A stretch of 64,000 bases of DNA, from positions 1,302,001-1,366,000 of the forward strand of contig NZ_VATY01000001.1 in NCBI RefSeq assembly GCF_005885635.1, read 5' to 3'. Below, piece after piece: positions 34,092 to 56,309 of this stretch (position 1 is the stretch's first letter; each line of letters begins with the position of its first letter). The position numbers and the translations under genes are program-made. This stretch comes from Maribacter algarum (ex Zhang et al. 2020). Its GTDB lineage: Bacteria > Bacteroidota > Bacteroidia > Flavobacteriales > Flavobacteriaceae. The notes beneath the pieces were generated by a model. That model did not search any database. It saw only the letters and a list, made by a program, of their open reading frames with translations, and was not told the origin of the DNA.

Positions 34092-34682
34092 CTATTTTTT
34101 GACAGCTTGTCTTATTTCCTTTATTGCTTCCTTTCCATCACCCCATCCTTCAACTACCGCTACATCATTTTTATTATAGTTCAAGAACCACAATTCAATG
34201 ATTTCAATTACCATTGGGTAGTTCTTCTGCAATTCTGCATATGTGGAAGCCTTTACAATCCTTTTCTCTTTTTCCATGGGCACGGCTATTATCTTATAAT
34301 CTTGCTCACCTTTGTCCACTAGTTTTAGCATTGCAATGGGTAGCACTTCAACAATAGTTCCCGTTTCGTGACTTTCTGAAAGCACCAATATATCCAGGGC
34401 GTCGCCATCACCGCCTGTTTTCTTATCGGAAATAGTAGAAGGTATAAAACCATAATTTCCAGGATAGGACAGAAAATCAATAACTCGGTCTTTGCCGTTT
34501 TCTTGGTCAATGATAAACTCCTTTGAATCGTGGTCATACTCGTATTTTGAATTTGTGCCTGCCGGAATTTCTATGACTGCATTTACTGCACCTTTTGCAG
34601 AAAAACTTGGGGTTTCGTAATAATCTCTTTTCTGGTTGCAAGAACAGACTAAAAAGAATAACAAAATAGCGGTGCCTTTCAT
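34092..34682 (-). CDS. Lipoprotein-type family I inorganic pyrophosphatase
   Basis: 196 residues. A short hydrophobic leader with lipobox LVCSC (Cys15) indicates a membrane-anchored extracytoplasmic form. The catalytic core is clear: KYEYD (46-50), YPGNYGFIP (73-81) and metal motif DGDALD (92-97), where Pro of the usual DGDPLD is Ala. The Asp and Lys of the DxxxxDxK block are kept. Hydrolysis of PPi is expected, but outside the cytoplasm. It is 7 bases after the CotH-like gene, so it belongs to the CotH/VTC/DUF4956 unit. Confidence 0.88.
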   Translation of the reverse strand: MKGTAILLFFLVCSCNQKRDYYETPSFSAKGAVNAVIEIPAGTNSKYEYDHDSKEFIIDQENGKDRVIDFLSYPGNYGFIPSTISDKKTGGDGDALDILVLSESHETGTIVEVLPIAMLKLVDKGEQDYKIIAVPMEKEKRIVKASTYAELQKNYPMVIEIIELWFLNYNKNDVAVVEGWGDGKEAIKEIRQAVKK

Positions 34683-34689
34683 TGACTAG

Positions 34690-35961
34690 TTATTCTTTAT
34701 CTATTATTCGTTTTGAAAGTTCTTGCCTAAGCACCTCTTGATTTTCCTTCAAAATATCCAAGGACAAAACAGCCTCACCCTTAAACTCGGCTTGTTGGGC
34801 TTTTGCCAAGCGATTTAAATCATCTTGGTATTTGATTTGTAGGTTTTCAAGATATTGCGGATTGGAAACTTCTTCCAAGGCAGCATACAATGCCTTTTGA
34901 AAAATCAGATCCGATTCAGACTTCCAGTAGTGTTTTAATGCAGGGAGTTTGTATCCAGAGTTGCCGTCAAAAGCAACAGGTTCTATCAATGATGAAATGG
35001 GGTTATAAAACCAGCGCAGATTATGTGCAGTCAAGCCATGCGTTCCTCCGAAGAGATTTGCAATAGCCGTAAATTTGGCGGTCTTCTCCACATCAAAAAC
35101 CTTGGAAATAGGAAGCTCTCCTCTTTTGTAGCGATTCAAGAGATTCTTTGCCAAGGTAAATTGCTTATTCAACGTAGTATCTGCAAAAATAGTGCTAAGG
35201 GAGTATGCCGTAATGGTCATATCATTGTTGCTACCGTATCTAGGATTGTATTTACCATCTACTTGGGTTCCTGTACGTTTGCTAATTTCGAATACTTTGG
35301 CACTCTCGCGCCACATATCAGCCTCTGTTAGCTTAAGTATTACGCCTACCTTGCGCCCGTTGTTCTCAATCAAGCGTTTATCAAAGGTTTCCTCAATTGC
35401 ATAAATACCTACATTTTTGGTTTCGGCAGTGTCATTGCTTCTCATTTTTACCTGAAGGAATCCTTCTAGAAAGTCATACCGAAGCCCAACCAAACCCTCT
35501 TGTTTGATTGCCTTATGGTACAACCATTCATTTAAATAGCCTCTTGAACCTGGGTGATGCACTGAAAACTTGCGCATGCCCTTAATGGTTCGGTCATCGG
35601 CTAATTTTATGCGATAGCTCCATTTCAATCCTTCCAAATGATCTGTCCAATCGCCTTTGAGTCGCAAACTCGCTTTATAATCTTCCTTCATATAACGAAT
35701 CGTCGCAGGTACATAATCATCATCGGAAGTTTGCAACACGCCAATACTCACAGCTTCATCGCGTTTGGCTTTCAGTGTTTCGAAATGCTTTTCATTGAGA
35801 ATTACTTGAAGGGAATTGTAGTTGGTGTTTTGAGAAATCTCAGGAATCACTTTCACCGTTTTCGAATTTCCCTTTTTATGGGAGAGTAAAACCAGCAATA
35901 GCAGAAAACTGCCTAAAGCGACAAGTAAAAACGGGTTGGATCTCTTCTTTTTGACCAGCAT
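34690..35961 (-). CDS. CotH kinase-like protein, membrane-anchored
   Basis: 423 residues: an N-terminal membrane anchor (about 11-27), then CotH-like blocks ASLRLKGDW (97-105), FSVHHPGSRGYLNEWLYHKA (132-151), VGIYAIEETFDKRLIE (184-199), FDVEKTAKF (289-297), and HNLRWFYNP...EPVAFDGN (313-334) with the presumed metal-binding Asp332. CotH proteins are atypical kinases that phosphorylate surface proteins in spores. The substrate here is unknown. It is sandwiched between DUF4956 (9 bases) and the pyrophosphatase (7 bases). Confidence 0.82.
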   Translation of the reverse strand: MLVKKKRSNPFLLVALGSFLLLLVLLSHKKGNSKTVKVIPEISQNTNYNSLQVILNEKHFETLKAKRDEAVSIGVLQTSDDDYVPATIRYMKEDYKASLRLKGDWTDHLEGLKWSYRIKLADDRTIKGMRKFSVHHPGSRGYLNEWLYHKAIKQEGLVGLRYDFLEGFLQVKMRSNDTAETKNVGIYAIEETFDKRLIENNGRKVGVILKLTEADMWRESAKVFEISKRTGTQVDGKYNPRYGSNNDMTITAYSLSTIFADTTLNKQFTLAKNLLNRYKRGELPISKVFDVEKTAKFTAIANLFGGTHGLTAHNLRWFYNPISSLIEPVAFDGNSGYKLPALKHYWKSESDLIFQKALYAALEEVSNPQYLENLQIKYQDDLNRLAKAQQAEFKGEAVLSLDILKENQEVLRQELSKRIIDKE

Positions 35962-35970
35962 TTGATTTCT

Positions 35971-36636
35971 CTAGTGTCTTTCGATAAAACTAAATTCCAT
36001 TTCTCCCAATTTGGATAGGGCTTCCTTGGCTTGAATTAAACCTTCAACCGTTTTAAATTCAACATTTAGGGAAAGCTCGGCCATCTCATTAGATTGGTCA
36101 ATTCTTTTGATATCTACTTGGGAACAAAATTCCTTAAGTGTATTAATAATTTCGGTTTCGTTTACTTTTCCACTTCCACCGGCAATGGATAAAATCAAGT
36201 TTTGCTGTGCGTGCTTTTTCTTGTTTGAAGCTCCTGTTATTATTACAAACAATAAAACAAACAATACCCCGACCAAAGTGATGGTTTTTTGATCCGCCCC
36301 AAAACCTAAACCTATCGAAATTGCAATAAAGAAATAGGCAAGTTCCTCTGGTTCTTTAATAGCCGTTCGAAAACGAACGATAGATAATGCCCCCACCAAA
36401 CCAAGGGAAAGTGCTAATGATGATTTCACGATGGTTATGATAATCATTGTGGTGATACTTAATAAAACCAGGGTTTGTGCTAGTTTATTTCGATTAGACA
36501 ACGAAGCACCATATCGTGAATAGACGAAACTTAAAAGGTAAGCTGTAATCAAAGTCAACAACAGATTGATGAGAAAATCGACAATGGAAATATTCTCAGT
36601 ATTAAATTGGGATAGTAAATCGTTAAACTCGTTCAT
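35971..36636 (-). CDS. DUF4956-family membrane protein
   Basis: 221 residues. Four helices (about 20-40, 53-72, 76-86 with 96-112, 118-136) and a soluble C-terminal domain (about 145-221) resembling a ferredoxin-like fold. The signature GALSIVRFRTAIKEPEE lies at 82-98. The family regularly accompanies VTC-domain and CotH genes in bacteria. I suggest it is the membrane partner of the polyphosphate polymerase, but that is inference. Confidence 0.88.
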   Translation of the reverse strand: MNEFNDLLSQFNTENISIVDFLINLLLTLITAYLLSFVYSRYGASLSNRNKLAQTLVLLSITTMIIITIVKSSLALSLGLVGALSIVRFRTAIKEPEELAYFFIAISIGLGFGADQKTITLVGVLFVLLFVIITGASNKKKHAQQNLILSIAGGSGKVNETEIINTLKEFCSQVDIKRIDQSNEMAELSLNVEFKTVEGLIQAKEALSKLGEMEFSFIERH

Positions 36637-36661
36637 AATAGTTGGTTTGTTCTTCTATTTA

Positions 36662-37384
36662 TTATTCAGGAAAAGATTGAAAATTATTTACTCCGTTCAC
36701 ATATTTTGAGTTCTTGCTCAATCGAAACGGGAATTGAGCAGAAATGCTATTTGCTATACCATCGTCTTCTAGCCCGTATTTTAGTTCAACCACATTGAAT
36801 GGGTCTGACTGTGGCATTTTGCTAAAATTATTCATTCGTGTTTTGATATTTCTATAAAACACTTCGTAATCCAAGGTTATTCGAAACTTTTGGTTTGCAG
36901 AAATAAAATACCGCCTGGTATATGAATTAATCAACGTAGGGTTCAAACTGCGAACTATTTCGTAAATGGGTCTTGGAAGGTTTGAGTCATGGAATAATTT
37001 ACCCAAATCTCGACCAGTAATCGAACTGTCGAGTGTGAATGAATTCAAATCATAGGTCCATTTATCGCCAACCAATCCGTTTTTGATCTTGATTTCAAGC
37101 TTTGGATTTTTGATACTCCCCAAAATATCTTCGTACCATCGAATACGAACTTTTTGTCGGTCCGCGACGCCATCTACATTGTCAAAATAGTATTTGAAAT
37201 CGTTTGTATCGAAATAGATATTGTTTACCTGTCGTTCATGAAAAACTTCTCTAAAGTGTGCTGAATTGTCTTTAACAATCGCCACTAGTTCATTCAAATG
37301 CATTGATTTGGGAACGATATATTTTCTTTCGTACCGAAAGTTATTAGCGATTTTTAAAGCATGTTCTATCTGCTCTTCTATCAT
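36662..37384 (-). CDS. VTC-domain polyphosphate polymerase
   Basis: 240 residues covering one VTC tunnel domain: RYERKY (17-22), NIYFDT (55-60), RQKVRIRWY (76-84), LEIKIK (96-101) and VELKYG near 210. These Lys/Arg/Glu positions line the active tunnel in yeast Vtc4, which makes polyphosphate from ATP. It has no membrane helix, unlike eukaryotic Vtc4, so it presumably works with the DUF4956 protein encoded 25 bases downstream. It overlaps the upstream beta-helix gene by 4 bases. Confidence 0.9.
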   Translation of the reverse strand: MIEEQIEHALKIANNFRYERKYIVPKSMHLNELVAIVKDNSAHFREVFHERQVNNIYFDTNDFKYYFDNVDGVADRQKVRIRWYEDILGSIKNPKLEIKIKNGLVGDKWTYDLNSFTLDSSITGRDLGKLFHDSNLPRPIYEIVRSLNPTLINSYTRRYFISANQKFRITLDYEVFYRNIKTRMNNFSKMPQSDPFNVVELKYGLEDDGIANSISAQFPFRLSKNSKYVNGVNNFQSFPE

Positions 37385-40011
37385 TGTGTTTTCTTAACTC
37401 GCGTTTCCTTGCTATCTACACCAAATTCCACTCCGTACATCTGCTCTTTTACCGCTTCAATGGTTTCCGCTTGTTCGCCATTTAAAAGTAATGAAGATTT
37501 ATTCTCAATGAGGTATTCCGTTTCAACCTGAGTCATTTTTACATTATCAGCAGTGATATTTGAGGCACCAAACTCGGGTTTTTTTTGAAAGGCAGTAAAG
37601 CCTAATTTGGAGTTTGTAATTTTAGCACCCTGAACTTCCACTATAGACAAGTCCTTTCCGGCAACAGCAATTTCACATTGATCAATGGTAATTCTTTCAG
37701 CTTTCATTACACTATCCTCTCCGGCGCTCAGCGCCTTATCTCCAGCCTTGATAATTTTGAGGTCGTACATTTCTAATTTTGAGCCCGAAACGTCAACCGC
37801 ATCGTTTCCTAAATTTTCAAAAGTGCAGTTCGTCAATGTGCCTTGTACAAAATCCCCATCAAAAGCATCTGATTGTGTATTGCGAAAAGTAGTATTCTTC
37901 ATAGTGAAGTGGGTTCGAATGATGTTCAAGCCATCTTCACAGCTGTTATCGGCAATTAGAACATGGTCTAAATTAACCGGGCTTTCATAAAAAACAACCG
38001 CGCCTGTCAAATCCCATAAACCATGTGTCTGATTGGTTAGATTATCAAATTCTACGTAATTCAATTCTGAGGTTTCCTTTGCGCTGACCACAAAAATGCC
38101 CTGTCCTTTTCTATCGGAAGAATGTATTTTAATCGGCTTCTCTTTTGAGCCTTGAAAATTAAGCGGGGATTTCGAGATTATTTTTCCACCAGATTTGATG
38201 TCTATTTGCAATCCAGATTTGGCATTAACCACATAACCTGCCGGAAGTAGTAAAGGTGAACTCAAAACAATAGAATCCGAAGCAAACTTAATTTCTTTGT
38301 TTTCCTCATCAATAGCTATAAATTCAAATTGGGATAGGTCGCTATTTACGCGCAATAAATCATCATCTTCAGACAATTCATCCAAATCCTTAAAAGGAGT
38401 TATTTCATTGTACTTCACTCCAAATGTTCCCACCAAACGATACCCTACGGAAAGACTGAAAATGTCTTTTTCAAAAACGAAACCTGTGGTTTTCTTTTTC
38501 TTTTGGACAAATAAATTATCATAACTATCTGGAAGACTAAAGACAACTTTTGTTTTTTCCGAAGGCATTATTATAAGATTCTCGATAGGAGGTCCCGTGA
38601 TGAACTTTTCTTGTTTATAGGATAATTCCTCAACCTCAAGAGGAAAGTTGGTCAGGTTCTGGATCTCAACTTCTATTTGGTTCTCATCATACCGCACTAA
38701 AGCCATTTTGGTAATTGTAGAAGGGTTCAAAGACTTTTCAAGAACCAACTTGTTATGCTGAAAAAGTTCCATTTCAAAGAGGTTCTTTGGATTGTTTTGA
38801 TGAGTGACTTCCAATATTTCTTTGAGTTCTCGTCGATTTTTAGACACCAATTCCTGAACGTCTTGTAGCGTCGCCATCTGTGCTAATTGTTGCGCGTATT
38901 GCTCGGCAAAAGTAATATCTTGAATTTTCAAGTTTTTGATATATGTATTCAGACGGCCTAAATCTTTAGTGACATGAAAGGGTTCAAGTAAACCGGTTTT
39001 TTCATTATAGTTGAGGTACAGACTATTATTCGTGCGATTAGAATAGAGGCTTAGTAAGGAGTAATAAGTTGCTAATTTTTCGATATCAAAAACTTCTTCA
39101 AATTCATGCCCTCCCTCGATGTAGACCATAAATTTCGGGGTAATGAGTAGATTGTCTAAATTCAGATATTCGACCTCAGGAACACTTTTTCGCTGCGTAA
39201 GACTTTCCCAAAAAGAAATATCATCTTCGATGTAAACTAACTGCAAGCCCTTTTCCTTTAAATAAGCATTGAAAGATTCCGAATTTTTTAGCACATCCGT
39301 TTCTTTAAAGTTTTCCCCAGCAGATATATACGGAATCCTGTTGTTTCCTAAAGTCTTTGCGAATAGAAGTTCATAAGCCGACGTTTCCGTATTTAATCCA
39401 ATGGTCAATGAGTCTATTTTACCCTGTTCTTTTATTCTTGACTGGATTACTTCTTTTGAGGAAAGTATGCTGTTATCTATGGTCGGGATGGCTGTTTGCC
39501 AATTTTTAGTGTAAGGAACAATTTTAGCTATCTCAATGTTAGGAAGCACTTGTTTCGCAACATAATAATTTAGACCATTATGCGAGTAAGTAATGGTATT
39601 TGCGGAATAGGTAATATACTTTCTTTCACCCTTTTTCCTTTCTGTGGGGTAGATATCTAAACGGATAGATTCAATCAAAGTATCATTTGGAGTCGCTTTT
39701 TTTATTAAAACTACTTCGCGATATATTTTATTCTGGAAAAAGTGGGCGTCAAATTTTAAAGCCTTGATTCTCTCAAAACGTCCTTGGGTTGAATCAAGAA
39801 TGATATCTATTGGCTCGTCTCTAGTAAACCTCTCATAAGGCTCAGGAAGCTGCTCAAACGAATTATTATAACTCAGGGTATGGTCAAATATAGAATCGGA
39901 AACATTGTTTTTAATGCTATTCTTTGATTTAAATGCAAACAGGCCTATGACCAAAACGATTAGCCCTAGAATGAGGTAAAGTTCTTTGTTTTTAAAATGA
40001 GGTTGATTCAT
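37381..40011 (-). CDS. Membrane-anchored protein with degenerate CotH-like segment and beta-helix domain
   Basis: 876 residues from the ATG at 40011; a TTG at 40044 would add 11. N-terminal anchor about 9-28. A middle part contains FDIEKLATYYSLLSLY (about 308-323) and LLEPFH (about 341-346), which align by eye with FDVEKTAKF and IEPVAF of the CotH-like neighbour but lack its DGN. Residues about 595-830 are a right-handed beta-helix with short Asn/Asp-rich turns. It may bind a surface polymer. It is the first gene of the VTC/DUF4956/CotH/pyrophosphatase unit. Confidence 0.75.
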   Translation of the reverse strand: MNQPHFKNKELYLILGLIVLVIGLFAFKSKNSIKNNVSDSIFDHTLSYNNSFEQLPEPYERFTRDEPIDIILDSTQGRFERIKALKFDAHFFQNKIYREVVLIKKATPNDTLIESIRLDIYPTERKKGERKYITYSANTITYSHNGLNYYVAKQVLPNIEIAKIVPYTKNWQTAIPTIDNSILSSKEVIQSRIKEQGKIDSLTIGLNTETSAYELLFAKTLGNNRIPYISAGENFKETDVLKNSESFNAYLKEKGLQLVYIEDDISFWESLTQRKSVPEVEYLNLDNLLITPKFMVYIEGGHEFEEVFDIEKLATYYSLLSLYSNRTNNSLYLNYNEKTGLLEPFHVTKDLGRLNTYIKNLKIQDITFAEQYAQQLAQMATLQDVQELVSKNRRELKEILEVTHQNNPKNLFEMELFQHNKLVLEKSLNPSTITKMALVRYDENQIEVEIQNLTNFPLEVEELSYKQEKFITGPPIENLIIMPSEKTKVVFSLPDSYDNLFVQKKKKTTGFVFEKDIFSLSVGYRLVGTFGVKYNEITPFKDLDELSEDDDLLRVNSDLSQFEFIAIDEENKEIKFASDSIVLSSPLLLPAGYVVNAKSGLQIDIKSGGKIISKSPLNFQGSKEKPIKIHSSDRKGQGIFVVSAKETSELNYVEFDNLTNQTHGLWDLTGAVVFYESPVNLDHVLIADNSCEDGLNIIRTHFTMKNTTFRNTQSDAFDGDFVQGTLTNCTFENLGNDAVDVSGSKLEMYDLKIIKAGDKALSAGEDSVMKAERITIDQCEIAVAGKDLSIVEVQGAKITNSKLGFTAFQKKPEFGASNITADNVKMTQVETEYLIENKSSLLLNGEQAETIEAVKEQMYGVEFGVDSKETRVKKTQ

Positions 40012-40098
40012 AAGAAAGCAACTCCTTACGGAATTGAGATTCAAGGTTTCTTTCGGGGTGGAAAGTTACACAAACTTTAGCCTAATGTCAATTGAGGT

Positions 40099-40863
40099 CT
40101 ATTTCAGAAGTTCTTTGATTTCCTCTCTATTGGGGTAGTTAATAAGCACTGCCTTGTACTTTCCCTTGAAAACAAAAAGACTGCCTGCCGCCACGCCAAT
40201 TACCTTATATTTTTTGATAATTCCTTTAATATCATCCAAAGTTCCTGCTCCGCCTAACACCGTCATTGGAAGGTTGATAGCAGAACGAATCATATCAATC
40301 AACTTACCATCATACCCTTTCATTATACCGTCGTTATCAATTGAATTTACCACGATTTCTCCAGCACCCAATGCTTCAAACTGCTTTGCTAACTCTTTTG
40401 GGTCCTTTCCTGTGGATTTTGTTCCGTTGTGCGTATATACCTGATACTTCCCAAAAAGACCTTTCTTTTTGACATCTAGCACTACTATCACACTCTGAAC
40501 TCCGACAGCTTTTGCAATTTCCGTTACCAAGTTAGGGTTTGCTATCACAGCAGAACTCAAGGCAACTTTTTCAGCTCCTAGATGAATGATTTTTTTGGCA
40601 TGCTCAACGGTTTTAACTCCGCCCCCATAACACAAAGGCATTCGAGATTCATTCGCCAGATTTTCTATCATCTTGAAATCGGGTTCACGCCCTTCTTTGG
40701 TGGCGTCAATATCAAGAACAATCAATTCATCGACTTCCTTTTCATTGAAAATCTTAACGGCATTGATGGGATCCCCAACATATTTACCTTCTTTAAACTG
40801 AACCGTCTTGACAAGGCCTTTGTTTCGAACCAATAAACAGGGAATTATACGAGACCTTAGCAT
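40099..40863 (-). CDS. hisF: HisF-like cyclase of acetamidino-sugar synthesis
   Basis: 254 residues, (beta/alpha)8 barrel with catalytic-type Asp in VLDIDATKEG and VLDVKKKG and phosphate loops VLGGAGTL and GVAAGSLF. Its place next to HisH and an N-acetyl-sugar amidotransferase shows it is the HisF2/AglZ-type paralogue rather than the histidine enzyme. It pairs with HisH to channel ammonia that WbpG uses to turn an acetamido group into acetamidino. It is the last gene of the operon. Confidence 0.9.
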   Translation of the reverse strand: MLRSRIIPCLLVRNKGLVKTVQFKEGKYVGDPINAVKIFNEKEVDELIVLDIDATKEGREPDFKMIENLANESRMPLCYGGGVKTVEHAKKIIHLGAEKVALSSAVIANPNLVTEIAKAVGVQSVIVVLDVKKKGLFGKYQVYTHNGTKSTGKDPKELAKQFEALGAGEIVVNSIDNDGIMKGYDGKLIDMIRSAINLPMTVLGGAGTLDDIKGIIKKYKVIGVAAGSLFVFKGKYKAVLINYPNREEIKELLK

Positions 40864-40866
40864 AGC

Positions 40867-41481
40867 TTATAAGTTTGCAAAATTTTTAAATAATTGAACT
40901 CCATTACTATGGCTTTTCTCGGGATGGAATTGCATTCCAAATACATTATCATTATTAACTGCGGATGAGTATTCAAGTCCGTAGTAGGTACTTGCCAGTC
41001 TATTTTCTATTGAAGTACAAGAGAAGTAATAGGTATGTAAAAAATAAAAACCCCTTTCGAAATCGATATTCTCAAAAATAGGATGCTCTTTTGTCGGATT
41101 GATACTATTCCAACCCAAATGTGGTATATGTGGCTTTTCTTCAAAAAACAAACTATCGAACTTTTTCACATGACCATCAACATAGCCCAAGCCAGATAAT
41201 TTCCCCTCATCACTACTTTTGGCCAAAATTTGCATGCCAACACAGATCCCCATTACAGGAATCTTCTTTTCTAATACCAATCGGTCTAATTCTGTCTGAA
41301 AGCCAGAATCTAATAACTCTTGCATGGTTTCATCGAAAGCACCAACGCCTGGCAGGATAAGTTTGGTCGAATCTGAAAGTTCTTCGGGAGTACTAGCTAC
41401 AAAACATTCAATATTTAATTGCTTATAGATATTAAGAATGGCTTGAATATTCCCCGAGCCGTAATTAACGATTTTTATCAT
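40867..41481 (-). CDS. hisH: HisH-like glutamine amidotransferase of acetamidino-sugar synthesis
   Basis: 204 residues, class I glutamine amidotransferase. The nucleophile Cys is in VMGICVGMQIL (about 74-84) and the His-Glu pair in MQFHPEKSH near the C-terminus. It releases ammonia for HisF. It overlaps the WbpG-like gene by 4 bases and is 3 bases from hisF. No other histidine genes are nearby, supporting the sugar pathway. Confidence 0.9.
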   Translation of the reverse strand: MIKIVNYGSGNIQAILNIYKQLNIECFVASTPEELSDSTKLILPGVGAFDETMQELLDSGFQTELDRLVLEKKIPVMGICVGMQILAKSSDEGKLSGLGYVDGHVKKFDSLFFEEKPHIPHLGWNSINPTKEHPIFENIDFERGFYFLHTYYFSCTSIENRLASTYYGLEYSSAVNNDNVFGMQFHPEKSHSNGVQLFKNFANL

Positions 41482-42629
41482 CGTTTTCCTCCTTTTTCAA
41501 GTCCGACCATTCGCATCACTCTTGCTCCTATATTATAAATACTATCTTGTGACTTATAATCTTTGTAGGTTTTATTAGGGGCGTCCATATAGCTCTGTAG
41601 TTCTTCCACTGATATTCCCAATTTGTTTGCTATAAATTCAAAGTCTTGTTTTATGGTTTCAGGGTCATAGGCCGGTGTTTTAAGTTCCTCCAAGGCTTCT
41701 TCCCTTGTCATCTGATCGGTCAGTATCAAACTTGAATACTGCACTTTTCTAGTGTCGAAACCAAACTTTTTTGGTAGCCAATAGGCTTCATAAAATCGGG
41801 TAAAACGCGATTCAAAGTGTTTTTGTGGATACTTTTGATATCCGTAGTTATCCACTAAAAACTGCATGGCTTCTTCTTTATGATAGGGAATATAGTCCAA
41901 CGGGCGAATCAATTTAATCCCTTTGAAATAAGGCAAATAGACCTTATGCCACAGAATATTGGTGACGGGGTAGTCTTTCAATGTTCCTGTGCCATGTTTT
42001 TTATGAATATCCCGTAATTGAATAGAGTCTGATTGGTAATACATCCACTCTAAAGGATTGCGAACACATTCCGTAGAATAATTTCCGCCTGTTAGAATGT
42101 ATTTGATTTTATGCTTCGATGCAAACTTATACATAGTGGCAAAAAAGGCGTGGTCTTGAGGGGTGTCTACATGAGAAACTCCTGATTTGAAAAATGAGAG
42201 TTGTAAATCTTTCATTTCTTCCCAGTTGATTACCTCTGTATATAGATCTAATCCCAATCCATCTACCAAACGCTCGATATTATTAACGGCAACCTGCGAA
42301 TTCCAACCTGCATCAACATGAAAAACCAAGGGACGTAACCCATACTTTTCTTTCATGGCATACAGAAGAAAGGAGCTGTCGATACCACCACTCATACCCA
42401 TTAAACAGTCAAAATCTTTGCCTCTCCCTTCTTTCTTAATTTTAGCCACTATTTCCTTTAGGGCTTTATCACCCCGTTCATCAGTATGCCATTTGGGTAA
42501 AATGTCTTGAAAGTAGGTATTGCAATGGTCACAAACCCCATTTTCATCAAAAACGATTTTCGAATCCGTGGTATCCATCACGCAATTTGTACATATTTGG
42601 TATTCTCTGTTATTCATGGTCATCTTCAT
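41478..42629 (-). CDS. wbpG: N-acetyl sugar amidotransferase (WbpG/PseA-like)
   Basis: 383 residues. Two CxxC pairs near the N-terminus (CTNC, CDHC) suggest zinc; the PP-loop ATPase motif is MGMSGGIDSSFLLYA (about 81-95). The family uses ATP and ammonia from HisH/HisF to convert a sugar N-acetyl to an acetamidino group. The start at 42629 overlaps the epimerase stop (ATGA); Met5 is an alternative start. Confidence 0.9.
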   Translation of the reverse strand: MKMTMNNREYQICTNCVMDTTDSKIVFDENGVCDHCNTYFQDILPKWHTDERGDKALKEIVAKIKKEGRGKDFDCLMGMSGGIDSSFLLYAMKEKYGLRPLVFHVDAGWNSQVAVNNIERLVDGLGLDLYTEVINWEEMKDLQLSFFKSGVSHVDTPQDHAFFATMYKFASKHKIKYILTGGNYSTECVRNPLEWMYYQSDSIQLRDIHKKHGTGTLKDYPVTNILWHKVYLPYFKGIKLIRPLDYIPYHKEEAMQFLVDNYGYQKYPQKHFESRFTRFYEAYWLPKKFGFDTRKVQYSSLILTDQMTREEALEELKTPAYDPETIKQDFEFIANKLGISVEELQSYMDAPNKTYKDYKSQDSIYNIGARVMRMVGLEKGGKR

Positions 42630-44902: not shown

Positions 44903-46183
44903 TTAGAGCATTTGTTTGCGCGTATCTTTTAAAACAAAAATAGCGAGTAATAACAGTACAAATCCGCCATGTGTCAATAATACTGTAGTTAATGATGAAC
45001 TTATTAGGGAAAATATAAATAGGAAGATCAATCCAAAAAATTTACCGCTGATATTCAATTGATTCAAAGTGGAAAAATAAAGTCCCACAATAACTGCATT
45101 AATGGTTACTCCAATCATTCCGAAATTCATGAATCCATCAGAAATAATTCCATTATTGGCATTCCACTCTGCCTTGCCAAAATACTCCTCCCCAACAATA
45201 TAAGAGTGCGGCTTGTCGTAGGGATATTCAATAAAAGAGCCCGTTATGGATTCTGACCAAAACAAGTTATTACCATCGAAGAAATCGAAGTAAAGCAGAT
45301 CTAATAACCCTGGTAATAAAAAGGGACGCCGTACAGTCAAAACCATCAAATCATTATTTTTGAAAACCAGTGAACTAAATAAAGACAGTAAAGTAACTCC
45401 TATCAAGAAGAGCAACAAGTAGTTCATTTTCTTTCTATAGTCAAAACGATACAAAACCAACACCATAATCAAACCTGCAAATACAGCCTTATTTGCCCCA
45501 CACAAATACAAAAAAATCAGAGAGCTAATTCCCAAAAACACAGTTGTTTTGTTTTTTCTAAACAGTCCGAAAACAAGCAAGCTTGGTATAATCAGTTTAC
45601 TAAACCAAGAATATGTGTAATCGGTATAAAGGTTGCTTATGTTAGAGGCCATTATCGCCCTTGTCTCATAAACTTCACGAAGTAACAGGTTATTAAGATT
45701 AATATAAGGCAGATACAAAACAACAAAAGGAACGATTCCAACTAACACGACAACCAACAGTAAGTTTTTCGATGATCTTAAACTCGTCTTTTTCGAACTG
45801 AATTTGATTTTTATTTTCCCTATTAAGAGAATACTCCAAAAGAATATGTTTTGAGAAAGGAAGATTCTCATGTCCACTCCATCCACATTTATAAATAAAA
45901 CAGCGCTGGGGAAAACAAAGAAAACCAACACCAAAACAAGTACGGCATATAGCATGTCCTTTAGTTTTACCGATGACAACACAAATATGTTCGCTAGTAC
46001 GATAAGTGATCCAAAACAAAATTTCAAAAAACTGAAATCATAAACCAATCCCGCTGTTTCACTGGCTTTTAAAAAAACATAGAGGTCTTTTATAACCAAT
46101 GAGAAAGAGGTTAAAAAAAGCACGTATAAAACCACCAAGAGTTTTAGATTGCCGTACTTTATTTTGTCCGTCTTAATTACCAT
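44903..46183 (-). CDS. O-antigen/oligosaccharide repeat polymerase-like membrane protein (Wzy)
   Basis: 426 residues, about 11-12 helices. Between late helices it has a large periplasmic loop with ESITGSFIEYPYDKPHSYIVG and then NNGIISDGFMNFGMIGV, the layout of repeat-unit polymerases. Sequence similarity in this group is low, so the call rests on topology and place beside wzx, a glycosyltransferase and a second Wzy_C-type protein. It overlaps the upstream ligase-like gene by 11 bases. Confidence 0.65.
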   Translation of the reverse strand: MVIKTDKIKYGNLKLLVVLYVLFLTSFSLVIKDLYVFLKASETAGLVYDFSFLKFCFGSLIVLANIFVLSSVKLKDMLYAVLVLVLVFFVFPSAVLFINVDGVDMRIFLSQNIFFWSILLIGKIKIKFSSKKTSLRSSKNLLLVVVLVGIVPFVVLYLPYINLNNLLLREVYETRAIMASNISNLYTDYTYSWFSKLIIPSLLVFGLFRKNKTTVFLGISSLIFLYLCGANKAVFAGLIMVLVLYRFDYRKKMNYLLLFLIGVTLLSLFSSLVFKNNDLMVLTVRRPFLLPGLLDLLYFDFFDGNNLFWSESITGSFIEYPYDKPHSYIVGEEYFGKAEWNANNGIISDGFMNFGMIGVTINAVIVGLYFSTLNQLNISGKFFGLIFLFIFSLISSSLTTVLLTHGGFVLLLLAIFVLKDTRKQML

Positions 46184-47447
46184 TAACCATCGTTTTTCGC
46201 TCTTCTTGGGTAATAATCAAATAGTAAAAAAAGAAGAAAAATGATATCCCAGAAAATCTATTCAAAACACTTTCAAATAGAAAACTCAAAGTTATCATTA
46301 TTAAAAATAGCAGATTGAAAAGTCGGTTATTTGGTGTGTTTGAAAGTCTACTTTTTCGAATAAGGTTCCAGAGAAGCCATATGAAAATCAACACCCCAAC
46401 AACACCGCAAACCAGTGCAATTTGCAAAAATTGATTGTGGGCATTTAGCTCCTCTTTTAGGGGTTGGGTATATCCTTTGGACTCATATACTGCATTCAAT
46501 TCCTTTTGAGTGTCTCCCACACCGACCCCTAAAAATGGATTTTTGGAGGCTACGTACAAAGCAGCATCCCAACTCATCAATCTCAAGCTATAACCATACC
46601 TTTCACTGGGCTCTATAGTAAACCCCCTTTCAAAAAGTGTTTCAATCATGATTTTACTTCTTGGATTTTGAAGTAGAAACAGTGTTCCAATTGAAAAAAT
46701 AATAGCAACAAACAACCCTTTGTAAACTTTATTTCCAATTCTGGATAGCCCATATACAACATAAATCAGGCCGCATATTAGTAGACTTATTTTACTAGAA
46801 AGTTGAAAAATTACCAAAGGGAAAAGCAGTAGTAGGATGAAATGTATTTTGCTTTTCTTCCACAGCGAAAAGGCTAATATTATGGCAATCGCTGTATTCA
46901 AATAGATTGCAAAATAGGTGGTTTGATGAAATACAGAAAAATGGGATGAGAAAAAATAATTTCCATCTCGCACAACGGAATACATAAAAGAAAACGCATC
47001 GTTTACGACAGGTTTGAAAATAAGTTCACCATCTATAATTGAAAAAGAATTATAAAATGCATTCCCAAAACAAATCAAAACAGCAAGTGCACAACCCAAA
47101 ACAAAATATTCAAATAGTTTAACCCTATCTTTTGAAGTTAGTCTTGAAGCCGAAAAAATAATTGGGAAAGCCATAAGTGACGCCCTTTGCTCCAAATAAC
47201 GAAATTCCATTCGCTCTGAATACAAAAGCGATAAGGCAATCATGAGATATAAAATTGGAGGTAGAAGGAAGGGTAAACTCCAAAAAGTAGCTTTGTGTTT
47301 TTTTGAAACTAAAGAAACTACGACCAAAGCCAGTAAAACTATCGTTGACCATTTTTGATGAAGTGGCATACAAAATGCAAGTAAAACCAAGAGAAAAATT
47401 CTTGTTTTTTCAAGTCGTTCTAAACCAAATACATTTTCTAAAAACAT
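46173..47447 (-). CDS. O-antigen ligase-family membrane protein (Wzy_C domain)
   Basis: 424 residues, about 11 helices. The Wzy_C loop shows WDAALYVASKNPFLGVGVGD (about 294-313) and AHNQFLQIALVCGVVGVLIF, typical of WaaL/Wzy enzymes with the conserved Arg and His. It could ligate finished glycan or act as polymerase; the neighbouring gene is the other candidate. It starts directly after wzx with no gap. Confidence 0.82.
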   Translation of the reverse strand: MFLENVFGLERLEKTRIFLLVLLAFCMPLHQKWSTIVLLALVVVSLVSKKHKATFWSLPFLLPPILYLMIALSLLYSERMEFRYLEQRASLMAFPIIFSASRLTSKDRVKLFEYFVLGCALAVLICFGNAFYNSFSIIDGELIFKPVVNDAFSFMYSVVRDGNYFFSSHFSVFHQTTYFAIYLNTAIAIILAFSLWKKSKIHFILLLLFPLVIFQLSSKISLLICGLIYVVYGLSRIGNKVYKGLFVAIIFSIGTLFLLQNPRSKIMIETLFERGFTIEPSERYGYSLRLMSWDAALYVASKNPFLGVGVGDTQKELNAVYESKGYTQPLKEELNAHNQFLQIALVCGVVGVLIFIWLLWNLIRKSRLSNTPNNRLFNLLFLIMITLSFLFESVLNRFSGISFFFFFYYLIITQEERKTMVNGN

Positions 47448-48719
47448 CTAGGGTTTTAAGCCTTTTAAGGTTTTGTATTGCAATACTAGGTATAATCCGT
47501 AAAGAATGCACTCGTGCACCACATATACCAAAAATAAAGTTTCAACATCTAGTTTTAGATAGTATGCGCAAATACCCAATGTAATGAAGGTTGTTATAAA
47601 ATAAAAGGTCTGCCAAATAGAGGCGATTTTCAATCGATTCACAGCATTAAATACCGAAGATAAAGGACTAGCCACCAGTTTCACCAAAAAACTAAATGCT
47701 AATATGGATGCGAATGTACCTGCTCTTTCCCAAGTATCTCCAAACACAAAAGAAAAGAGTTGGGGGCCGAAAAAATAAAGAATCGCACAAATTGGCAATC
47801 CAATAGCAAAAAGCCCTAAGGCTGATTTTTTAAAGAACTTAACGGACAAGTCAATAGCCCCATCCGTATTAATCATATAGGCAATTTTCTGATAAAATAC
47901 ATCTTTAAAAGACGCGCCAATAAGTCCCATAGGGGCTCCCAAAACCAATGTTGTCAATCCGAAATGACCTAAATCGTCAGTGCCATAAAATTTAGCCAGA
48001 ACCAATATAATAGCTTGTATGGAAATCGTATTTAAAAAGGTTGGGATGATACCATATTTGGGATAATCGATATATTCTTTGGCCACCCCTTTTAATGAGC
48101 TCCATTGAACAAAGGCGGCTTTAATATTGGACCTTTTAAACAGATAGACCCAAGAGCTAAGAAATCCTGTAATTTTTCCGACCACCAACCCATATAAAGT
48201 GAAATTTGTTAACCCCAGTCCGATACTGGTGAGAACGTAAAAGAAGGATTGTAGCACCTTTGCTACGGCATTATCTTTAAAGGTTTTATGTCGAATAGAT
48301 AAATTAGAAAAAGAACTCCAAATACCAAAAAATAACACGTGAAGCGGAACAAAATATAGGGCTTTGCCAATTTTAAACCCATTATCTTCGGGCACAACTA
48401 AGGTTACTAGGAAGAGCAACACGGAATAAAGAATCGTAAGATAAATACTTAGTGCGAAAATACGGTTGGCTTTATCTTCTTCTTTTGGAATAACAATAGC
48501 AAACTGGTACCTGCCTCCAGAAACTACTTCAAAAACTCCTGCAATGGCAAAAAATGAGGTGTAGAGGGCGAATTCCTTTTCTGAGTATAATCGCGTTAAA
48601 ATAGGGGTAACGGCAAATGGTAGGGCCTGTGCTATTCCGGTTCCTATCATCTGCGAGGAGACGTTCCTCATAAATTCCGATCCGGAAAACTTAGCCCATA
48701 TTTTAGTAACAAAGTTCAC
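47448..48719 (-). CDS. wzx: Wzx-type oligosaccharide flippase
   Basis: 423 residues, about 12 helices. The N-terminus (MRNVSSQMIGTGIAQALPFAVTPILTRLYSEKEFALYT) is characteristic of the polysaccharide_synt flippases. It translocates the undecaprenyl-linked repeat unit to the periplasm. It lies directly before the ligase-like gene in the transcript and 56 bases after the WbpB-like gene. Confidence 0.88.
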   Translation of the reverse strand: MNFVTKIWAKFSGSEFMRNVSSQMIGTGIAQALPFAVTPILTRLYSEKEFALYTSFFAIAGVFEVVSGGRYQFAIVIPKEEDKANRIFALSIYLTILYSVLLFLVTLVVPEDNGFKIGKALYFVPLHVLFFGIWSSFSNLSIRHKTFKDNAVAKVLQSFFYVLTSIGLGLTNFTLYGLVVGKITGFLSSWVYLFKRSNIKAAFVQWSSLKGVAKEYIDYPKYGIIPTFLNTISIQAIILVLAKFYGTDDLGHFGLTTLVLGAPMGLIGASFKDVFYQKIAYMINTDGAIDLSVKFFKKSALGLFAIGLPICAILYFFGPQLFSFVFGDTWERAGTFASILAFSFLVKLVASPLSSVFNAVNRLKIASIWQTFYFITTFITLGICAYYLKLDVETLFLVYVVHECILYGLYLVLQYKTLKGLKP

Positions 48720-51664: not shown

Positions 51665-52519
51665 TTAAAGATGTAATAAGTATTCCCCATAGCCACTTTT
51701 TAGCAATGGTACCGCCAAACTATGAAGCTGTTTTTTATCAATATAGCCCATAGTATAGGCTACTTCTTCAATGGCACCTACCTTAAGGCCTTGTCTCTCT
51801 TGAATTACTTCAACTAATTGAGAGGCCTGCATTAGGGAGCTGAATGTTCCTGTATCCAACCATGCCGTTCCTCTGTCCAGAATACTTACCTGTAGTTTTC
51901 CCTCATTTAAATAGGCCCTATTTACATCTGTTATTTCTAATTCTCCCCGTTTACTCGGCTTAATGTTCTTGGCGATATCAATCACAGAATTATCGTAGAA
52001 ATAGATTCCCGGAACTGCAAAATTCGACTTGGGTTTTTCTGGTTTTTCTTCAATAGAAATGGCTTTCCCTTTCTCATCAAATTCTACAACGCCGTAACGT
52101 TCTGGGTCTTGCACATGATATCCGTAAATAACTCCTCCATCAGGATTATTGTTCGTTTGAAGTAGTTTGGCCAATCCGGAACCATAAAAAATGTTATCTC
52201 CTAAAATGAGCGCCACTTTATCATCGCCAATAAAACTTTTCCCTATTATAAAGGCTTCTGCCAATCCGTTCGGATTCTCCTGAATCTCAAAATGAAAACT
52301 ACAGCCCAGCTGGGAACCATCACCCAATAATCGAAGAAATAAAGGTGCGTCTTGAGGGGTAGTTATGAATAGTATTTCACGGATTCCCGCAGACATCAAG
52401 GTCGCCAACGGGTAATAAATCATAGGCTTATCATAAATAGGCATAAGTTGTTTACTTACCGCAATCGTTATGGGATGCAAACGTGTTCCTGAACCTCCTG
52501 CAAGTATGATTCCTTTCAT
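51665..52519 (-). CDS. rfbA: Glucose-1-phosphate thymidylyltransferase
   Basis: 284 residues. [18 protein letters not shown] is the nucleotidyltransferase signature; [19 protein letters not shown] and [16 protein letters not shown] are typical RmlA blocks. First step of dTDP-L-rhamnose synthesis: dTTP + Glc-1-P. It lies 3 bases after rfbB. Confidence 0.97.
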
Positions 52520-52522
52520 TTT

Positions 52523-53557
52523 CTAAGCTGTTTGATATTTGCGAATATACCAAGCTATCGTCTTTTCTATTCCTGATTCAAAGTTCTCATCCGCTCTCCA
52601 CTTGAGCTCTCCTTCAATTTTACCAGCATCTATTGCATAACGATAGTCATGACCTAACCTGTCTTTTACAAAACTAATCTGCTCAGAATAACTTCCAGAA
52701 TTCTTGGGTTGAAGTTTATCTAACAAGCTACATATCTTTTGGGCAATGTAGAGGTTGTTATGTTCATTATTGCCTCCGATGGCGTAGGTATCTCCTGTTT
52801 TTCCACTGGTAAAAACCAATTTGATTCCCTTGCAATGGTCTAGGACATACAACCAATCACGTACATTTGAACCGTCACCATAAATGGGAATTTCCTCCCC
52901 ATCCAAAGCTTTTCGTATAATAGTAGGTATCAACTTTTCATCATGCTGTTTCGGTCCATAATTGTTCGAGCAATTACTCGTAACAACATTTAAACCATAG
53001 GTGTGAAAGTAACTGCGCACCAAAAAATCAGAAGATGCTTTCGAAGCACTGTACGGACTATTGGGGGCATATGCCGTTTCTTCAGTGAAGAAACCTTCAC
53101 TACCTAAACTTCCATAAACCTCATCAGTTGAAACATGATGAAATCTTGCGTTTTCGTAACTTTTTTTGGGGACATTCGGAGACTCCATCCAAAACTTTTT
53201 GGCAACTTCCAATAAGACAAAGGTCCCTTCAATATTAGTTTTGATAAAACTATCTGGTCTTTCTATTGAATTATCTACATGAGATTCTGCTGCAAAATGA
53301 ATAACGCTATTAATCTGATATTTTTCAAATAGCTCTTCTATTAAGGCTCTATTACATATATCGCCTTCAACAAAATGATACCGCTTATTTTGAGCTATCT
53401 CTTCAAGATTTTGAAGATTTCCGGCATAGGTCAACTTGTCTAGATTGACTACTTGAACCTCGGGGTTATTTTCTAAAAAATAGGGAATGAAATTGCTGCC
53501 GATAAAGCCCGCACCTCCGGTAATCAAAACACATTGATTTGTGATCTCAATGGTCAT
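52523..53557 (-). CDS. rfbB: dTDP-glucose 4,6-dehydratase
   Basis: 344 residues, extended SDR. NAD motif ITGGAGFIGSNF, active-site STDEVYGSLG and YSASKASSD (Tyr-x3-Lys), then SNNYGPKQHDEKLIP. It converts dTDP-glucose to the 4-keto-6-deoxy sugar. It follows the Wzz-like gene by 1 base, so chain-length control and rhamnose supply share a transcript. Confidence 0.97.
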   Translation of the reverse strand: MTIEITNQCVLITGGAGFIGSNFIPYFLENNPEVQVVNLDKLTYAGNLQNLEEIAQNKRYHFVEGDICNRALIEELFEKYQINSVIHFAAESHVDNSIERPDSFIKTNIEGTFVLLEVAKKFWMESPNVPKKSYENARFHHVSTDEVYGSLGSEGFFTEETAYAPNSPYSASKASSDFLVRSYFHTYGLNVVTSNCSNNYGPKQHDEKLIPTIIRKALDGEEIPIYGDGSNVRDWLYVLDHCKGIKLVFTSGKTGDTYAIGGNNEHNNLYIAQKICSLLDKLQPKNSGSYSEQISFVKDRLGHDYRYAIDAGKIEGELKWRADENFESGIEKTIAWYIRKYQTA

Positions 53558-54572: not shown

Positions 54573-56258
54573 TTACGCGTTGAATAGTTGATTCAAAATT
54601 TTATCGGTTATCAAATATGTTGGTTTTACACCTGTAGTACCCAATCCGCCCGAGGCCAATGTGCTTCCTGTTTCTAAAGGGTTATCGGAAGCGTAATATG
54701 CATATCTAACTTTTACATCTTCATTGATACTCTTGCGTATTTTAGATGCCGATTGAATTGCTTTCTGGTAATGCACCCCTTCCATTTCTAGTCCAATTAC
54801 ATTCCAAGTGGATTGATGGAAAAACTTCAAAATGTCTTTGTTCTGCAGGGATGTTCCTAAAACGGTTACCATTGTTCCCTCGAAAACTTTCAAACCATGT
54901 CCTTTGAAATCTGCTGCACACAATTCATTTTTAAAGGGATAATTATCTGCAGTGCCCTCAAAAATATGTGCGGACGGAATCATTAAATCTCCTTTTCCTC
55001 CCTCTAAAATACCTGCCTTTCCCATAATGGAAACAGAAGCAATATTCAAATAAATCGTGTCCTCTTCCTTATCTCCAAAGGGCTTTAGTAACTCATCAAT
55101 CGTCTCATAAGCTTGTTCACCAAAAGCATAGTCCATAACAAAGATAACAGGTTTTTCACTATCGGGAAGACCCATCTCGAGTTCATAACAGCAGGCGTCT
55201 TTGCCGATTTTTGCCATGTCGAATATCTGTACATCGATGTTCGTACCTGATACATCATCGATTGAAATCATTCCATTTTTCTTTGCTATAGATTCCACCT
55301 TATCTCGCAAAACCTTATTTCCTGAAGAGCTCAATGCTTCATATATTTCCAAAGAATCAGAATTTGGAAACTCTTTTGCCAAGGCAGTTCGGGCAAATAA
55401 GGAATTCATGACACTATGCATATTGGCACTAATAATATGAATTGGTCGTTCTAGGAGATCATTTTTCTTTAGAGTTTCTTTAATCGTATCCGACCAACGC
55501 TCACCGTGAATATGGTGGCCAAGACGCTCACGTAATTGTGCGCTAAAAGTAATGACCCTTTTTTCACCCGTCACCTCCTCTTCTATGGCCAGTTTGCCCA
55601 ACCACCAAACGATTTTTAAAAACCGCTCGGGATCGTCTTTGGTGGCGAATTTTTCATAAACCCATAGAACTTCTTCAAAACTTCTTCCCAGGATATTTGC
55701 AGTATGTATTAATGCTACTTCCCGTTCTGATTGACTCAACTCCTCTTTTTTTGCCGCATCTTCAAGTTTCGTCCAGTCACGAATAGTTTTGTCAGTATCT
55801 TCTATTAGAACCCGTTTACATATCTTCTCTGATTCGACAAAAAGAAAGGTCAAGTGAGTAAGAATATCATAAATATCAGAGCGACCTCTGGTAATCTCAA
55901 TATTCATTTGTTCGTCATCGATACGATAACAGTTTCGCCTTCTTTTAGGAGGCACAATCGGCTTGAAATGTGATTTTCCATAGCCCTCATCAGATGTAAG
56001 GTTGATGAATCGGCACTGTTCAATACCTTCAGGCAAACGTTCTAAAACGTATATGAGTCCATTGAATTCGGCTTTCTCCTCAGCTATCGTACCGTAAATT
56101 TCAGGGCGTAATTGTAAGAGGGCATTTTTTAATGATTCTCCTGAGACTCCTGTTGGTTTGTAAAATCCTCGATTAAACAGGTGACGCATGGTGATATACA
56201 ATCGCTCAATAGCATTGGTCGATTCTTGTGCGCGAGTAGTATTGGTTGTTTTGCTCAT
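54573..56258 (-). CDS. DUF6909-family protein with nucleoside-phosphorylase-like C-terminus
   Basis: 561 residues, no membrane helix. The N-terminal half is helical (about 1-280). The C-terminal part (about 360-561) has GLEMEGVHYQKAI and YASDNPLETGSTLASGG, reminiscent of the EME and SDNP-type blocks of purine nucleoside phosphorylases. I know the family only as DUF6909; the activity is unproven. It heads the polysaccharide operon, 3 bases before the Wzz-like gene, with a TAATTTTG box 14 bases before the start. Confidence 0.7.
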   Translation of the reverse strand: MSKTTNTTRAQESTNAIERLYITMRHLFNRGFYKPTGVSGESLKNALLQLRPEIYGTIAEEKAEFNGLIYVLERLPEGIEQCRFINLTSDEGYGKSHFKPIVPPKRRRNCYRIDDEQMNIEITRGRSDIYDILTHLTFLFVESEKICKRVLIEDTDKTIRDWTKLEDAAKKEELSQSEREVALIHTANILGRSFEEVLWVYEKFATKDDPERFLKIVWWLGKLAIEEEVTGEKRVITFSAQLRERLGHHIHGERWSDTIKETLKKNDLLERPIHIISANMHSVMNSLFARTALAKEFPNSDSLEIYEALSSSGNKVLRDKVESIAKKNGMISIDDVSGTNIDVQIFDMAKIGKDACCYELEMGLPDSEKPVIFVMDYAFGEQAYETIDELLKPFGDKEEDTIYLNIASVSIMGKAGILEGGKGDLMIPSAHIFEGTADNYPFKNELCAADFKGHGLKVFEGTMVTVLGTSLQNKDILKFFHQSTWNVIGLEMEGVHYQKAIQSASKIRKSINEDVKVRYAYYASDNPLETGSTLASGGLGTTGVKPTYLITDKILNQLFNA

Positions 56259-56272
56259 GAAAGAATTTCACG

Positions 56273-56280
56273 CAAAATTA
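56273..56280 (-). promoter_or_regulatory. Candidate -7 box at the head of the polysaccharide operon
   Basis: TAATTTTG on the minus strand, 14 bases before the DUF6909 ATG. It would drive DUF6909, wzz and rfb genes. No matching -33 element. Confidence 0.35.
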
Positions 56281-56309
56281 CAAATAAAAATCAGGTTTTA
56301 ATGACTACC

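Follow-up and report, generated by a model that had tools for sequence, protein, structure and literature searches.

Several described systems stand closest to a block of five genes in the flavobacterium Maribacter algarum (ex Zhang et al. 2020), which we examined within a window of 64,000 nucleotides, this being the whole stretch of DNA that was analysed (assembly GCF_005885635.1, contig NZ_VATY01000001.1, positions 1,302,001 to 1,366,000 of the forward strand). In the yeast VTC complex, polyphosphate synthesis is coupled to passage of the chain across the membrane by way of a basic channel (PMC9911596). CotH is a spore coat kinase of Bacillus subtilis and Bacillus cereus, for which the source of ATP has been called an unanswered question (PMC7821199). 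Finally, the accessory genes reported from the Pel exopolysaccharide loci of streptococci and clostridia are cotH, DUF4956, DUF4832 and one for a polyphosphate polymerase (PMC7112168). Published sources are cited throughout by PubMed Central (PMC) number or structure code.

In Streptococcus intermedius, Pel was still made in all four accessory-gene deletion mutants, and loss of SIR_1592 or SIR_1594 (CotH) changed Pel amounts and, in one medium, more than halved aggregation (PMC12345266). We infer that SIR_1592, termed an MgtC/ACT membrane protein in that paper, is a DUF4956 member. According to the same report, from 2025, the trio of polymerase, DUF4956 and CotH genes did not turn up outside Pel loci. 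In Clostridium perfringens, one locus encodes VTC, a membrane protein termed tubulin/GTPase and CotH one after another (PMC2879425); to judge from gene order and length, this is probably the trio again. The matches listed in the open PMC literature include no description of the form considered here, in which CotH is associated with a beta-helix, and nothing relevant on polyphosphate as an extracytoplasmic phosphate donor.

The original prediction for this block was a system that makes polyphosphate, passes it outward and uses it to phosphorylate the cell surface. Comparative sequence analysis now identifies the block as a derived variant, with five genes, of a module conserved in bacteria and archaea in which VTC, DUF4956 and a CotH/beta-helix protein travel together; for this module we tentatively propose a role in the modification of envelope glycan.

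Results

The five genes were described as tightly spaced on the minus strand, and this is confirmed in presence, order and spacing: all five open reading frames (ORFs) are found at 34092-40044, with gaps of 7, 9 and 25 bases at three of the junctions and an overlap of 4 bases at the last. Lengths are given in amino acids (aa).

34092..34682, minus strand: inorganic pyrophosphatase of family I that carries a lipoprotein signal, an accessory of the module; PF00719 at 1.9e-36, 125.7 bits
34690..35961, minus strand: membrane-anchored CotH-fold protein, 423 aa, a predicted extracytoplasmic phosphotransferase; one N-terminal hydrophobic segment
34966..34968, minus strand: codon of D332, metal-binding Asp, taken as the equivalent of B. 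subtilis D251
35038..35040, minus strand: codon of H308, which stands where CotH has its catalytic Asp (equated with D228 of B. subtilis)
35971..36636, minus strand: DUF4956 membrane protein; PF16316 at 7.7e-21, 75 bits against a cut-off of 30.6
36662..37384, minus strand: soluble VTC polyphosphate polymerase domain, 240 aa; PF09359 at 3.6e-29, 102.4 bits against a cut-off of 23
37381..40044 (TTG start), minus strand: membrane-anchored beta-helix protein with N-terminal region, degenerate CotH stretch and C-terminal right-handed beta-helix
37413..38340, minus strand: beta-helix domain, residues about 569-878 (TTG numbering), from alignment to the fused relative L132
37651..37935, minus strand: beta-helix acidic/Lys ladder D704, D726, D729, D731, D748, D751, D769, K770, E776, K797, D798 (TTG numbering)

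In a Pfam search of the window proteins, the PF00719, PF16316 and PF09359 matches all exceed their curated cut-offs. The pyrophosphatase has the expected domain and active-site motifs, the DGDxLD motif being retained in alignment to 1qez, and its N-terminus carries a lipobox-like pattern with Cys at residue 15. This signal, together with the predicted N-terminal segment of the CotH-like protein, agrees with the extracytoplasmic site that had been claimed for both. The beta-helix protein, which likely starts at an in-frame ATG at 40011 (876 aa), has one N-terminal membrane segment and a worn CotH stretch at residues about 315-440; its Pfam match is weak (PF13229, 0.005, under that family's cut-off), and it is homologous to the C-terminal ~570 residues of the fused CotH/beta-helix proteins described below. 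Elsewhere in the genome there are a signal-less second pyrophosphatase (on another contig), a PPK1-type polyphosphate kinase and an ordinary CotH; the block is therefore not the cell's sole source of these families.

A CotH-alignment scan of a genome collection (84,980 species) returned 459 relatives, the best 80 of which were analysed; a CotH ORF is present in 79 of these. Fifty loci extend at least 2.5 kb on both sides (the other 30 having less than 2.5 kb on one side or, like L160, lacking a CotH ORF), and among them DUF4956 occurs in 48/50, VTC in 47/50, both in 47/50 and the pyrophosphatase in 16/50 (within 5 kb). The neighbourhood is thus conserved well beyond the window, although the block of five families predicted to co-occur stands only in part: DUF4956, CotH/beta-helix and VTC are constant, and the pyrophosphatase is accessory. 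These best 80 of the 459 relatives include Bacteroidetes, KSB1, Chloroflexi, Phycisphaeraceae, Omnitrophota, Poribacteria, Zixibacteria and Vogelbacteria, and also two archaea, Methanogenium marinum and a Pacearchaeote. DUF4956 is present in the Zixibacteria locus L163, where VTC was not found by the VTC profile. Our locus sets overlap (L101=L028, L104=L029, L125=L033, L130=L031 and L142=L036, with L110/L111 near-identical), and L207=L140, L208=L117, L209=L134, L214=L105, L215=L107 and L216=L109 are further taken as the same.

The CotH part and the beta-helix form a single protein of ~840 to 1010 aa in most relatives, usually encoded between DUF4956 and VTC. In a kinase-domain tree of 12 split and 58 fused rows, from which ten incomplete or duplicate loci were omitted, the window falls in a clade of 11 split rows (Shimodaira-Hasegawa-like approximate likelihood ratio test, SH-aLRT, 98). 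One gene of the split form retains the kinase part and the other retains the beta-helix and the worn CotH stretch, a pattern that duplication of a fused gene and later specialisation of the two copies would produce. A second split or duplicated arrangement is seen in Chloroflexi L171, L174 and L175, where two CotH/beta-helix-like genes flank VTC or DUF4956.

The CotH/beta-helix form is uncommon, both in Bacteroidota and in the window's family. A fused-protein profile matches strongly in 3/395 Bacteroidota genomes, 3/3 with VTC; in 50 more of the 395 its matches are only short and weaker, and almost all of them fall on the beta-helix. Strong matches are found in 17/397 genomes of the window's family. 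Fourteen of these 17 were fetched (the others were already in the G set), six of the 14 being records seen in the 80-relative survey; this overlap means that the counts of the 80-locus survey and the 14-locus fetch are not independent. DUF4956 and VTC are present in 14/14, and four of the 14 loci (L203, L204, L205 and L206) are divergent.

VTC and DUF4956 are closely linked. In a draw of 395 Bacteroidota genomes, VTC was found in 57 (65 places) and DUF4956 in 88 (96 places), with DUF4956 at most 1 kb from VTC in 61/65 places and at most 4 kb in 64/65, the sole remaining place being a 54-residue fragment; conversely, VTC adjoins DUF4956 in 64/96 DUF4956 places. VTC also occurs in 17/59 relatives, the window's own genome counted, and 18/18 other VTC loci fetched from these relatives have DUF4956 in the fetched stretch. 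Within the window's genus, VTC loci are of mixed kinds (split, fused and classical) in G002, G003, G007, G009, G012 and G013, and seven other searched members have no VTC locus, which suggests that the locus has been exchanged within the genus.

The VTC tree (87 rows) and the DUF4956 tree (84 rows) both divide module rows from those of other VTC-DUF4956 loci by a single change, with SH-aLRT support of 98 and 97 respectively, the module label being taken from the CotH/beta-helix gene. The module side holds several phyla, bacteria and archaea together. Module rows (45 VTC and 42 DUF4956) came from 37/80 loci chosen to thin near-copies, the window and seven G-handle loci, and comparison rows from 42 of 73 other VTC-DUF4956 loci; these are quick LG+G4 trees of selected rows, with a program warning that long branches meet. 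On the evidence of these trees, the VTC, DUF4956 and CotH/beta-helix genes have a common history. A Wzx/Wzy cluster such as that around the window block is a place of gene exchange, and unrelated genes might come to share a glycan locus there by accident; we regard this as highly improbable and already contradicted, since 47/50 loci across phyla keep both partners, VTC and DUF4956 are linked in 64/65 places, CotH and beta-helix are fused and the trees match, which rules out a chance neighbourhood.

Membership in a Pel locus was judged by PelG (PF16933) as the sole marker. In the window's genome no match to PelG was found, and in 20 searched module genomes nothing exceeds the cut-off (0/20); G456 has a match that stays under it, at 18.9 bits where 29 are required. 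By this marker Pel-locus membership is ruled out for the window's genome and the 20 module genomes, and the trio therefore occurs outside Pel loci.

The VTC profile matches yeast Vtc4 (3g3q) at 9e-15, and ten aligned Vtc4 tunnel residues, K200, R264, R266, K281, K294, R361, R373, E426, K428 and K458 (yeast numbers, hand-counted from the alignment), are identical in 64/64 relatives and in L203-L206. We take K200, K281, K294, R361, R373, K428 and K458 to be tunnel residues of Vtc4. R264 and R266 are required for synthesis in yeast (PMC8749416), and E426 is described as a tunnel residue (PMC9911596). With PF09359 above its cut-off and polymerase residues intact, the earlier identification of a polyphosphate polymerase domain is upheld as a predicted activity, and VTC would make polyphosphate.

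DUF4956 is predicted to have about five transmembrane helices and a C-terminal ACT-like domain (AlphaFold2 model, pLDDT 81), and R88, R90 and K94 are invariant in 62 sequences. It had been cast in the role of the yeast membrane subunit Vtc1. No match to DUF202, the Vtc1 family, was found in Pfam at E up to 0.1, where PF16316 is the sole listing, and a Vtc1 role is consequently one of analogy and not of homology.

The CotH-like protein of the window has no Pfam match at E up to 0.1, and phmmer against the PDB found nothing; among fused relatives, PF08757 is above its cut-off in L081 and L176 and not in L031. A nine-sequence profile (six classical CotH rows, the window protein and two relatives) matches B. 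cereus CotH 5jd9 at 7.8e-21, and HHalign of this branch against classical CotH gives 98.7% and 1.5e-16. In a model of the fused relative L132 (pLDDT 89), the CotH part matches 5jd9 at Z 26.8, with 321 residues aligned. By profile and model comparison, then, the CotH-like part is homologous to CotH kinases. An N-terminal hydrophobic segment is present in 78/79 CotH proteins of the module.

The beta-helix was likewise placed from the model of L132 and not of the window protein. Residues 554-860 of L132 align with the alginate epimerase AlgG (4ozz) over 280 residues (Z 26.5), and other glycan-acting beta-helices follow; the closest enzymes are AlgG, AlgE4, GH87 and GH28. Every Asp, Glu and Lys of the ladder is shared by 73/73 aligned beta-helix proteins.

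Exported phosphatases recur beside the module. A calcineurin-like metallophosphatase occurs in 23/50 loci against 0/20 control stretches (p 6e-5) and was not found in the window; PF00149 is above its cut-off in L103, L130 and L164. It lies between CotH/beta-helix and VTC even in the archaeal locus L176, where the protein was assigned to the family by BLASTP and has no Pfam match, phmmer against the PDB finding nothing. A crude lipobox pattern is present in 18/31 metallophosphatase ORFs, with other export-type N-termini in some of those remaining, and in 9/19 module pyrophosphatases (one doubtful) in addition to that of the window. Loci with the metallophosphatase include L103-L112, L114-L116, L130, L140, L159, L164, L172, L176 and L178, and at L144:5236-6186 and L161:10055-10948 the module is adjoined by metallophosphatases that are more distantly related and carry a signal of twin-arginine type.

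Glycan genes, sought with five context profiles, were found in 23/39 long loci (the 50 minus 11 under 17 kb) against 4/20 controls (p 0.004). The window block itself is flanked by a Wzx/Wzy-type glycan locus with these genes:

46173-47447: Wzy
47448-48719: flippase
51665-52519: nucleotidyltransferase
52523-53557: sugar dehydratase

Upstream, 40099-42629 holds a hisF-like gene, placed in its family by Pfam, together with genes that we take from sequence to be presumably hisH-like and a WbpG-like amidotransferase; matches to hisF- and hisH-like genes also adjoin the module in L121. At the edge of the glycan locus, 54573-57812 encodes a DUF6909 protein and a GH3-family protein.

Discussion

The reading that we prefer is an envelope module in which VTC polyphosphate would be exported through DUF4956 and used by the CotH/beta-helix protein on envelope glycan, with phosphatases cleaning up; we hold it tentatively, at a probability of about 0.37. 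VTC, in the cytosol, would use ATP to build polyphosphate on the inner side of the membrane. DUF4956 would hold VTC at the membrane and, by analogy with the yeast VTC channel, pass the chain outward. Outside, the CotH-fold/beta-helix pair would receive the chain, hold envelope glycan in the beta-helix groove and phosphorylate it, polyphosphate serving as donor because ATP is lacking there. The lipoprotein pyrophosphatase, joined in many relatives by the exported metallophosphatase, would clear pyrophosphate and spent phosphate. The gene set, its conservation, the VTC residues, the folds and the predicted locations were computed, and from these we infer the export by DUF4956, the polyphosphate donor, the glycan target and the substrates of the phosphatases.

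A series of observations weighs against this proposal, the first concerning catalysis. The position of the catalytic Asp is His in 80/80 members of the branch (H308 in the window) and Asp in 23/23 classical CotH proteins; the residue after RxKG is Asp in 80/80 against Asn in 19/23. The equivalence to D228 and D251 follows from the profile match to 5jd9, from HHalign and from spacing in the B. cereus chain, and a B. subtilis CotH with D228Q is inactive (PMC7821199). The metal Asp (D332 in the window), the Asn and the N-lobe residues are invariant in 80/80, a count that leaves out L203-L206, which were found later. In L203 and L206, the kinase-like part has lost the metal Asp (by eye). The beta-helix protein of L204 and L205 is shorter, at 572 and 529 aa; it begins with a lipoprotein-like N-terminus and lacks the kinase part, and a neighbouring protein of 503-515 aa has no significant CotH match. 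The strict kinase reading is weakened on both counts. What stands of the claim that CotH acts as a kinase is its homology, its predicted extracytoplasmic position and the retained metal Asp; against it are the His and four sister loci without kinase residues or without the kinase, and kinase action of the CotH-fold part in this branch is uncertain. That the invariant His reflects a polyphosphate donor threaded through DUF4956, in an extracytoplasmic glycan kinase of bacteria and archaea and possibly via a phospho-His intermediate, is an idea that we think unlikely.

The same swap of Asp for His would suit a CotH fold that is no kinase at all, being a pseudokinase scaffold or a transferase of another group, beside a beta-helix that acts as a glycan epimerase, lyase or hydrolase under VTC-DUF4956 regulation. 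The likeness of the beta-helix to AlgG, AlgE4, GH87 and GH28 enzymes points the same way, as do the ladder, identical in 73/73 and retained in L203-L206, and the S. intermedius SIR_1592 and SIR_1594 mutants, which alter Pel amounts yet still make Pel (PMC12345266). We nevertheless think this account unlikely, if a serious competitor, for it leaves unexplained both the invariant VTC catalytic residues in the rows examined and the recurrence of exported pyrophosphatase and metallophosphatase genes.

The divergent loci bear on another possibility. The kinase is degenerate or gone in L203-L206 while VTC, with its residues retained, DUF4956 and the beta-helix persist, so that the constant core is VTC, DUF4956 and beta-helix. 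Such a core, with dispensable kinase residues, a catalytic Asp replaced throughout the 80 and an invariant acid/Lys ladder, would fit a module that exports polyphosphate for the CotH-fold/beta-helix protein to bind or anchor as a structural or metal-binding polymer, with no use as donor. This too we judge unlikely: the invariance of metal Asp, Asn and N-lobe residues in 80/80 argues for catalysis in the main branch, and a polyanion would hardly be expected at an acidic ladder without metal to bridge the two.

Were the protein a kinase, it might instead take ATP or another nucleotide from outside, leaving VTC-DUF4956 with local phosphate supply or regulation. We consider this improbable, given the constant linkage to VTC, and we know of no ATP source outside the inner membrane. 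AMP is bound to CotH in 5jda, and B. subtilis CotH uses ATP in vitro (PMC7821199), but the same paper calls the ATP source for spores an open question.

The remaining difficulties for a polyphosphate-driven envelope module lie in its other parts. The DUF4956 model has no match in the PDB at E <= 0.001, weak ACT-type similarity being all that was found, and no channel-like relative of solved structure emerged. No VTC lies near DUF4956 in 32/96 places of the 395 Bacteroidota genomes (for example G082, G226, G257, G261, G277 and G371). For S. intermedius, no effect on aggregation is reported for deletion of SIR_1593, the polyphosphate polymerase (PMC12345266). As to the capsule/O-antigen setting that had been claimed, it applies to the window, with its Wzx/Wzy locus, but not as a rule: 16/39 long loci have no glycan gene by the five context profiles, and a glycan locus is frequent around the module without being the norm. 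The metallophosphatase and glycan contrasts are moreover generous, because clusters in the very loci under comparison supplied the context and metallophosphatase profiles, and because the 20 controls, drawn from ten genomes, are Bacteroidota only. Taken as a whole, the surface phosphorylation reading keeps its conserved gene set, VTC residues, predicted locations and glycan locus; it loses the five-family core, has the Vtc1 role as an analogy and is left with an uncertain kinase.

Were polyphosphate the donor of such an extracytoplasmic glycan kinase, cell-surface phosphorylation would here be independent of ATP. Extracytoplasmic kinases lack an evident ATP supply, and with this gene set the idea that polyphosphate provides the power becomes open to direct test. 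The gene set further points to possible roles of DUF4956, of VTC domains in bacteria and of the Pel-locus accessory genes, a trio reported solely from Pel loci and now extended to many phyla and to archaea.

The module shares with the Gram-positive Pel loci (PMC7112168; SIR_1592-1594, PMC12345266) the same three adjacent families and an exopolysaccharide setting, and differs from them in the absence of PelG above the cut-off in the window's genome and the 20 searched module genomes, in a CotH fused to or paired with a beta-helix, in the altered catalytic residue, in the exported phosphatases and in its spread over bacteria and archaea. With the yeast VTC complex (Vtc1/3/4) it shares a homologous polymerase domain and identical tunnel residues, whereas the window protein is the polymerase domain alone, DUF4956 is without a DUF202/Vtc1 match and the module has extracytoplasmic partners. 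The spore coat kinase CotH of B. subtilis and B. cereus (5jd9, 5jda) has the same fold (L132, Z 26.8) and the metal Asp and Asn; in contrast, the module has His for the catalytic Asp (80/80), a predicted membrane anchor, an extracytosolic site and a beta-helix partner. Finally, the alginate epimerases AlgG and AlgE4 and the GH28 polygalacturonases share the right-handed beta-helix (L132, Z 26.5 to AlgG), a likeness known from the fold of L132, whereas the beta-helix of the module has an invariant ladder of its own.

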